A stretch of 32,151 nt of DNA. Origin: an uncultured Anaerolineales bacterium (GTDB taxonomy: Bacteria > Chloroflexota > Anaerolineae > UBA4142). The stretch is from NCBI GenBank assembly GCA_903825565.1, contig CAIKBD010000268.1:1-32151 (forward strand). The letters are read 5' to 3'. Every line of letters starts with the position of its first letter. Position 1 is the stretch's first letter. The notes under the pieces were generated by a model. It did no database searches and was not told the origin of the DNA. It saw only the letters and a list, made by a program, of their open reading frames with translations. The translations under genes were made by a program, and so were the position numbers. Of the stretch, positions 2,489 through 27,188 are shown piece after piece.

Positions 2489-2525
2489 AAAATAAAAATG
2501 CCGTGAGTTTGCGAAAACCCACGGC
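2489..2525 (-). terminator. Attenuator terminator T2 ahead of the GNAT operon
   Basis: Read on the minus strand, bases 2525-2500 form an 11-bp hairpin (GCCGTGGGTTT / AAACTCACGGC, one G-U pair) with a four-base loop. It is followed by ATTTTTATTTT (2499-2489). It lies 45 nt before the first structural gene and repeats the GCCGTGGGT 5' arm of terminator T1, suggesting that the attenuator module was duplicated. Confidence 0.75.
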
Positions 2526-2564
2526 GAACGTCACCGATTACAAACCGGCTCCGGCGATAGCAAC

Positions 2565-2594
2565 AAAAAACCGTGGGCGCAAGTGCACCCACGG
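2565..2594 (-). terminator. Attenuator terminator T1 behind the leader peptide
   Basis: On the minus strand 2594-2571 forms a 10-bp stem (CCGTGGG paired with CCCACGG, extended by U-G, G-C and C-G) with a four-base loop, followed at once by six T (2570-2565). This is a textbook rho-independent terminator lying between a promoter and the genes it serves. Its 5' arm GGGTGCAC (2590-2583) can alternatively pair with GTGTGCCC (2626-2619) just behind the leader ORF, giving an antiterminator. Confidence 0.85.
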
Positions 2595-2615
2595 CAGGAA
2601 GGTTAATTCTCTGGC

Positions 2616-2683
2616 AACGGGCACACTATGGCAAGGTCACAATTACGAACCCACCGACAACTTGGAAGAACAACATGCCCGTT
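2616..2683 (-). promoter_or_regulatory. Competing RNA pairings around the leader ORF
   Basis: Minus-strand AACGGGCA (2683-2676, between Shine-Dalgarno and start codon) is perfectly complementary to TGCCCGTT (2623-2616) just downstream of the leader stop; the pairing extends outward with a G-U and a G-C pair. This is segment 1:2. Segment 2 (GTGTGCCC, 2626-2619) can instead pair over 8 positions with segment 3, the 5' arm of terminator T1. A ribosome finishing at the stop codon would cover segment 2 and let the terminator form; a ribosome stalled inside the ORF would leave segment 2 free to disarm it. Confidence 0.6.
2626..2676 (-). CDS. Leader peptide of the GNAT-GNAT-MFS operon
   Basis: A 16-codon ORF, MLFFQVVGGFVIVTLP, with stop TAG at 2628-2626. 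It has an excellent Shine-Dalgarno AAAGGAGT (2691-2684) seven bases before the ATG, far better than most genes in the window. It follows a near-consensus promoter by about 30 nt and precedes a terminator hairpin by about 30 nt, the arrangement of ribosome-controlled attenuators. There is no run of a single amino acid that would point to a biosynthetic operon. Residues 10-12 (F-V-I) resemble the I-F-V-I stalling core of ErmCL, so a drug-stalled leader is the favoured inference. The match is short and could be chance. Confidence 0.7.
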   Translation of the reverse strand: MLFFQVVGGFVIVTLP

Positions 2684-2706
2684 ACTCCTTTCTGTAAGAT
2701 GGTTTG

Positions 2707-2734
2707 ATTATACGCGATTTTAGTTGGGCGTCAA
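2707..2734 (-). promoter_or_regulatory. Sigma-70 promoter of the GNAT-GNAT-MFS operon
   Basis: On the minus strand TTGACG (2734-2729), a 16-bp spacer and a perfect TATAAT (2712-2707). Predicted transcription start is near 2700, just ahead of the leader peptide's ribosome binding site. Confidence 0.8.
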
Positions 2735-26792: not shown

Positions 26793-26813
26793 ACAAAACC
26801 ATCGGAGTTGACA

Positions 26814-27188
26814 ATGCACAATTACAAGGAACTCAAGGTTTGGCAAAAGGCGATGGATTTAGTTGTCGAAATTTATTCGTTGACGCGCACGTTTCCGAAA
26901 GACGAATTGTTTGGGCTGACGAATCAGTTGCGGCGCGCGGCAGTTTCAATTGCGCTGAACATTGCCGAGGGCGCTGGGTGTGAGAGTGATGTCGAGTTTG
27001 CGCGATTCTTGGACATTGCGTTGCGTTCGACGTACGAAACGGTAACTGCGTTGCAAATCGCGACGCGATTGAAATATAGCAAACAAGAAATCACCGACCC
27101 ACTTATTGCTAACGCGGAAGAAGTTGCGCGCATGACAACGGGGCTGATTCGCAAGTTTGCTCCGAGTCGCAAATATTTGCAAAAGTAA
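26814..27188 (+). CDS. Four-helix-bundle protein, 23S rRNA intervening-sequence type
   Basis: A 124-aa helical protein. The start NYKELKVWQKAMDLVVEIY and the centre QLRRAAVSIALNIAEGAG are diagnostic of the S23/IVP family, first seen in intervening sequences of 23S rRNA and also as accessory proteins of diversity-generating retroelements. The biochemical function is not known; pentameric nucleic-acid-binding forms have been described for relatives. It sits where nuoE is expected and is bounded by inverted repeats, so it looks like a mobile or passenger cassette rather than a complex I part. ATG 26814 is preferred to TTG 26808. No reverse transcriptase or rRNA is nearby. Confidence 0.88.
   Translation: MHNYKELKVWQKAMDLVVEIYSLTRTFPKDELFGLTNQLRRAAVSIALNIAEGAGCESDVEFARFLDIALRSTYETVTALQIATRLKYSKQEITDPLIANAEEVARMTTGLIRKFAPSRKYLQK

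Follow-up and report, generated by a model that had tools for sequence, protein, structure and literature searches.

Organization of the leader and the operon

The window (the whole stretch of 32,151 nucleotides that was analyzed) harbors an operon of three genes on its minus strand, preceded by a leader. Two GNAT acetyltransferase genes (GNAT 1 at 1890-2444 and GNAT 2 at 1333-1905, both Acetyltransf_3) are followed by an MFS exporter gene (128-1354, MFS_1, supported also by orthologues), and this GNAT-GNAT-MFS order was confirmed by Pfam. Homology suggests that the exporter may start at MKKLDAY, position 1336. Orthologues of GNAT 1 with 54-58% identity are present in five genomes (G001, G006, G008, G010 and G040).

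Between mutL and GNAT 1, all the parts named by an initial annotation made without database searches were found on the minus strand. There is a sigma-70-type promoter, TTGACG-16-TATAAT (2707-2734), which matches 11 of the 12 consensus bases. A Shine-Dalgarno (SD) site, AAAGGAGT (2684-2691), was read from the sequence; the leader ORF that it serves, MLFFQVVGGFVIVTLP (2626-2676), has 16 codons plus a stop and is supported by homologous leader ORFs. Segment 1, GTAACGGGCAT (2675-2685), lies between the SD site and the start codon. Segment 2, AGTGTGCCCGTTGC (2614-2627, consensus UCGNAGUGCGCCUGUUG), can have either segment 1 or segment 3 as partner, and the stop codon of the ORF overlaps its 5' end. 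A CCTTG element (2632-2636) is located a few bases 5' of the segment-2 core. Segment 3, GGGTGCACT (2582-2590), forms the 5' arm and loop of an intrinsic terminator with a U-run, T1 (2564-2595), whose stem (2595-2570, segments 3:4) has 11 pairs. A second intrinsic terminator with a U-run, T2 (2492-2525), also has a stem of 11 pairs (2525-2500).

Other features of the window were recorded. Behind the MFS gene there is a tandem repeat, GGCAAAACAAGATACGTAGGACAAATTTGTAAATGTGTCCCACCGTGCGCGC (1-180), whose unit starts within the 3' end of the gene itself. An imperfect inverted repeat on the minus strand (2757-2884), GGCTTCTCAAAAGTC ... GACTTTTGAAAAGCC around CCCTCACCCTAGCCCTCTCC, lies between mutL and the promoter of the leader. 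This repeat is dispersed and MITE-like, with about 55 matching pieces in its own genome. A gene for a 23S rRNA-intervening-sequence (S23 four-helix) protein lies on the plus strand between nuoCD-like and nuoF-like genes (26808-27188).

The initial annotation had proposed a leader-ORF transcription attenuator with three competing pairings, and this proposal is supported. In segment 1, AACGGGCA (2683-2676) is complementary to TGCCCGTT (2623-2616), and the full 1:2 duplex, the putative anti-antiterminator, has 11 pairs (-18.7 kcal/mol). The 2:3 duplex, the putative antiterminator, is AGTGTGCCC:GGGTGCACT, with 9 pairs (-15.1 kcal/mol). Stem energies of T1 and T2 are -23.9 and -18.5 kcal/mol. In the RNA folding check suggested by that annotation, run on 2700-2490, the folding z was -4.4 and none of 200 shuffles was equally stable. 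The count of terminator-like sites in the first 4 kb is not above chance expectation, and the convincing evidence is therefore comparative. The conserved core, the covariation, the frame constraint on the ORF and the gene context show that the leader is not a chance arrangement.

Distribution of the RNA element

A search with GNAT 1 in 60 related genomes showed that all 12 of the best orthologous GNAT loci carry homologous leaders. The parts are in the same order at each locus: promoter, SD site, a short ORF whose end carries a GTGCGCC-like segment 2, then T1 and usually T2. In five relatives, four from the same family and G040 from another family of the class, the leader precedes an ABC ATPase gene. 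This gene is the first of an operon that also contains GNAT genes and an ABC permease gene, with an MFS gene after them in most of the family members; by contrast, the operon in the window is only GNAT-GNAT-MFS. In one genus of a sister family the leader is directly 5' of a row of GNAT genes.

Model R1, a covariance model built from 13 sequences that covers segment 2 and T1, had matches in 19 of 20 genomes at the level of the order; in the class it matched 155 of 396 genomes, in 110 of 222 genera. With a second model built from 61 diverse members (R2) and E <= 1e-4, the class had matches in 210 of its 392 searched genomes, belonging to 146 of 222 genera. Elsewhere in the phylum copies are rarer, and of 400 genomes sampled across Chloroflexota R2 matched 57. 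The class that bears the element in about half of its sampled genomes is, by inference, very probably Anaerolineae. The 6.4-Mb genome to which the window belongs has exactly one significant match (2e-13), the next best being 0.007. We do not regard the element as restricted to this class, as weaker matches in other Chloroflexota mostly precede ABC or ABC-F genes too.

A plasmid search with one homologous leader gave no match and there is thus no sign of plasmid spread. At the gathering score, no Rfam family matched the window or 16 homologous loci, and permissive thresholds gave only chance-level matches in 2440-2760. No leader attenuator or RNA motif of Chloroflexota was found described in the open-access literature searched, most subscription journals being outside that scope.

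Covariation and conserved parts

The three pairings are supported across the homologues. The T1 stem has compensatory changes in all 8 model pairs, and 95.3% of cells are paired. When the pairing of each segment with its own partner was compared with that to the partners of other members, z was -6.7 for 1:2 (-4.9 in 46 non-redundant elements). For 2:3, where segment 2 was tested against the 5' arm and loop of its own T1, z was -10.5 (-7.4 in the non-redundant set); control windows gave z of 0.5 to 1.1. The covariance model knew the T1 stem only, and neither the 1:2 nor the 2:3 pairs were imposed. Shared ancestry among members of the set is reduced by the non-redundant test, not removed. In many members the uninterrupted 1:2 helix has few pairs (median of 6). 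By comparison, both the alternative antiterminator and the anti-antiterminator that define this class of attenuators are present, with 1:2 weaker than 2:3 at equilibrium.

The remaining parts of the leader are also conserved. A promoter with at least 9 of 12 consensus bases is found at this place in 68 of 84 homologous leaders, versus 5.5% of shuffles, and SD-like sites of 5 or more bases occur in 75 of 96 homologues. A second terminator is present in 48 of 86 homologues (1.9 expected). CCTTG is nearly invariant before the segment-2 core in both of the reading frames described below; partners for it (the SD site, or CAAGG in the ORF) were sought by eye and no general one was seen. The initial annotation had made conservation in relatives its own test. 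This test was passed, since the ORF, the SD site and the alternative pairings are kept far beyond GNAT-MFS operons.

The leader ORF

The homologous leader ORFs mostly have 16-34 codons. For the frame test, leader starts were chosen blind, by SD site and spacing only. Of 75 leaders, 74 are open in frame with a stop between -3 and +26 relative to segment 2; the other two frames gave 8 and 29, and shuffled interiors a mean of 35.6 and a maximum of 47. There are two frame solutions. In most members the reading is ...C-R-S-A-P-V-D-R-stop, and the stop lies 14-26 bases beyond the point where segment 2 begins. The family of the window and several unrelated families use the same bases in another frame, where the ORF usually terminates at -2 with the UAG of GUAGUG. 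Under both solutions segment 2 would be covered by a terminating ribosome, an inference from sequence alone.

The RNA core is preserved whichever of the two frames is used, and thus it is the RNA and not the peptide that is conserved. Segment-2 codons are nearly devoid of synonyms: serine is AGT in 64 cases and AGC in 2, and alanine is GCG in 68, without any GCA, GCC or GCT. Yet amino-acid changes that preserve or compensate pairing do occur, such as GTATTGCGCC with GCAAT in T1 (e.g. L113). These observations indicate that the RNA, the open frame and the stop position are under selection, and not the peptide. F, V, I, M and N are frequent in the bodies of the leaders, and the peptide body is not conserved across the class. 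An ErmCL-type, drug-specific arrest is therefore unlikely as the general mechanism.

The peptides of most members end in R-S-A-P plus a few residues (e.g. L119 and L153). Such ends resemble the RAGP/RAPP ends of arrest peptides (PMC12992588), and it is possible that they are a mere by-product of RNA pairing. Conservation of the RSAP ending at the peptide level was considered and judged secondary, as the bases are kept in another frame and synonyms are avoided.

Genes behind the element

The first downstream gene was classified at 100 loci from the whole class, picked by RNA match alone; the queries for downstream genes were derived partly from the loci themselves. ABC exporters (28), GNAT (24), DrrA-type ATPases (21) and ABC-F (8) were the most frequent, followed by HAD hydrolases (6), MFS (3), RIO-like kinases (2), RsgA (1) and an ABC-2 permease (1). 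No family was called at the remaining loci, two of which were unmatched (GNAT-like by eye) and four were at contig ends. The HAD hydrolase genes are often followed by GNAT or an exporter. Nearly all loci with readable downstream sequence have an ABC exporter, DrrA-type ABC, GNAT, ABC-F or MFS gene.

Representatives were checked against NCBIfam and Pfam. Three ABC-F proteins are above the cutoff of NF000355 (ribosomal protection-like ABC-F), and an RsgA representative is above that of TIGR00157. The exporters resemble the MsbA, SmdAB and Tet(46) models, and drrA (TIGR01188) and Mef-like MFS resemblances were also seen, all below model cutoffs. A simple motif scan of the exporter pairs found that in most of them one protein has the signature motif and the other does not, as would be expected of heterodimeric exporters with one degenerate site.

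Twenty further loci were taken from weaker matches, 17 elsewhere in the phylum and 3 in the class. Such genes follow the element at 15 of them. The other 5 do not have such a first gene and, together with L210, could be ordinary terminators. In the first set from outside the class, most loci precede such genes, and two more loci associated with RsgA were found.

Some less frequent genes were also observed in these operons. Genes for RsgA-like ribosome-assembly GTPases lie directly after the attenuator or later in the operon at L173, L206 and L208, which belong to three genomes, two of them outside the class. A RIO1-like kinase is encoded by the first gene after the attenuator in L091 and L099, from two genomes, and further downstream in L087 and L088, from two others. 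At L115, L120, L132, L140 and L147, a small gene of one homologous cluster lies between the two ABC exporter genes; in L147 it encodes a 23S rRNA-intervening-sequence protein according to Pfam.

Proposed mechanism

Very likely, the region is a ribosome-mediated transcription attenuator that holds a resistance/efflux operon off until translation is impaired, although there are no expression, Term-seq or ribosome-profiling data. RNA polymerase would start near 2700, and a ribosome would load on the SD site of the leader. During normal translation the ribosome would reach the stop on segment 2 and mask it, so that 3:4 (T1) forms and transcription ends. If no ribosome is loaded, 1:2 would pair and T1 would again be free to form. 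A ribosome halted on the start of the ORF or within its body would cover segment 1 and leave segment 2 free. The free segment 2 would then pair with segment 3, blocking T1, and GNAT-GNAT-MFS would be transcribed. T2 would be a second stop, and its release is not accounted for by the 1:2, 2:3 and T1 pairings.

Ensemble predictions were made for these states. With a ribosome at the start codon, 2:3 has a predicted probability of 0.86, versus 0.22 when segment 2 is shuffled, and with a ribosome at the stop T1 reaches 0.96. For the complete leader without a ribosome, the predicted values are 0.79 for T1 and 0.51 for 1:2. In nascent RNA that ends before the 3' arm of T1, also without a ribosome, the mean at equilibrium is 0.58 for 2:3 versus 0.22 for 1:2, and the window behaves alike. 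Since 2:3 is favored at equilibrium, the off state needs either a ribosome at the stop, the order of folding, or displacement of 2:3 by the greater stability of T1. This account of the off state is the weakest step of the proposed mechanism.

Comparison has established the conservation of the element, the covariation of 1:2, 2:3 and T1, the constraint on frame and stop of the ORF, and the association with resistance genes. Actual termination, translation of the leader and ribosome-targeting antibiotics as the natural signal are all inferred. The initial annotation had linked the leader to a drug that stalls the ribosome. This link is strengthened by the neighbors (ABC-F, BmrCD-like exporters, DrrA-type ABC, Mef-like MFS and GNAT) and remains an inference. 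Antibiotics are suggested as signal by the downstream genes, and general failure of translation is the more economical wording. Given that conservation lies in the RNA and not in the peptide, what is sensed is probably ribosome stalling in general rather than any single drug.

A bolder reading goes further, and we lean towards it by a narrow margin when all its parts are taken jointly. One homologous attenuator RNA would unite genes for translation stress and drug resistance in a cis-regulon that extends across Chloroflexota. It would be a portable, drug-nonspecific stall sensor placed before at least six unrelated families (ABC exporters, DrrA-type ABC, ABC-F, GNAT, MFS and RsgA), sometimes in 2-5 copies per genome. 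The RNA and the stop position would be selected rather than the peptide, the frame having been switched repeatedly, and pausing at the R-S-A-P end of most members might additionally keep the ribosome on segment 2 when the operon is off.

Alternative explanations

One alternative is drug-specific stalling at an ErmCL-like F-V-I of the window's own peptide, which would then sense mainly macrolides or a similar drug; the resemblance to ErmCL had been pointed out by the initial annotation. The peptide does have F-V-I, and these residues, together with M and N, are common in leader bodies. However, the motif is unique to the window; its family relatives have LKG, DVR or LRK there, and among the members the RNA core is fixed and retained in two frames, whereas the peptide bodies differ. 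The proposed likeness to ErmCL is thus not supported, and this explanation is very improbable. The detail of the ErmCL peptide used in the comparison is general background. Attenuation that responds to the supply of amino acids or to charged tRNA, like that of the trp and his leaders, would share the same four-segment topology and a translated leader. Against it, the leader has no run of a single codon, as the initial annotation had correctly stated for the peptide, and the downstream genes are exporters, acetyltransferases and ABC-F, without biosynthetic genes; we regard this possibility too as very unlikely.

A riboswitch or protein-binding attenuator with an incidental ORF would be compatible with a conserved RNA core that has alternative pairings. 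It can hardly be reconciled, however, with the constraint on frame and stop position obtained under blind choice of starts, and no conserved fold was seen besides the pairings, nor any Rfam family. There is equally little room for a constitutive 5' terminator pair or a small RNA gene, with chance pairings and an untranslated ORF. In its favor, the first 4 kb have no excess of terminator-like sites and expression data are lacking, but the covariation, the frame constraint and the gene association across the class speak against it. A ribosome-mediated attenuator with a translated leader remains the preferred explanation.

Significance and comparison with known systems

In the literature searched, antibiotic-responsive attenuators are described for single operons, in Bacillus and Streptomyces. 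In the present case, one RNA core marks what is apparently the response to translation inhibitors in an entire class of bacteria, most of them uncultured. The element provides a sequence handle for intrinsic resistance genes without prior annotation and illustrates how one sensor may serve many unrelated genes in cis. It is also an example of an RNA constraint, and not a nascent peptide, being kept by evolution.

In the bmrB-bmrCD system of Bacillus subtilis, induction requires translation of the leader and antibiotic bound to the ribosome (PMC4191407). As in that system, a small ORF, here putatively translated, precedes a multidrug ABC exporter; the largest downstream class here is likewise an ABC exporter gene pair. 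The bmrB terminator lies within the leader coding region, whereas here the leader stops on segment 2 and the terminator lies beyond, often with a second one after it. In addition, bmrB-bmrCD is one operon, while here one RNA core stands before several unrelated gene families. The vmlR leader of Bacillus subtilis (PMC9226507) is similar in having an upstream ORF (uORF) in an anti-antiterminator hairpin, where stalling frees the antiterminator of an ABC-F gene, and sequence variants of its uORF stay functional. It differs in that the uORF has three codons, in contrast to the longer ORFs found here, and a hairpin that sequesters the SD site is described for that leader in addition. The lmrC leader of Streptomyces lincolnensis (PMC8546547) likewise has two predicted premature terminators, an alternative antiterminator and uORFs before an ABC-F gene. 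Unlike the element described here, its uORF2 overlaps the terminator and uORF2 translation is needed for termination. With ErmCL-ermC (PMC4191407) the proposed mechanism shares a leader peptide that senses ribosome-bound drug, but control of ErmC hides the ribosome-binding site of the gene, and here there are transcription terminators.

The function of the element probably resembles that of bmrB-bmrCD and vmlR, by analogy and without implying shared descent. Within the limits of Rfam and the open-access literature searched, and leaving aside any relation to the bmrB and vmlR leaders, the class of mechanism is known, and the RNA family, its wide spread before unrelated resistance genes and its frame-independent conservation appear to be new.
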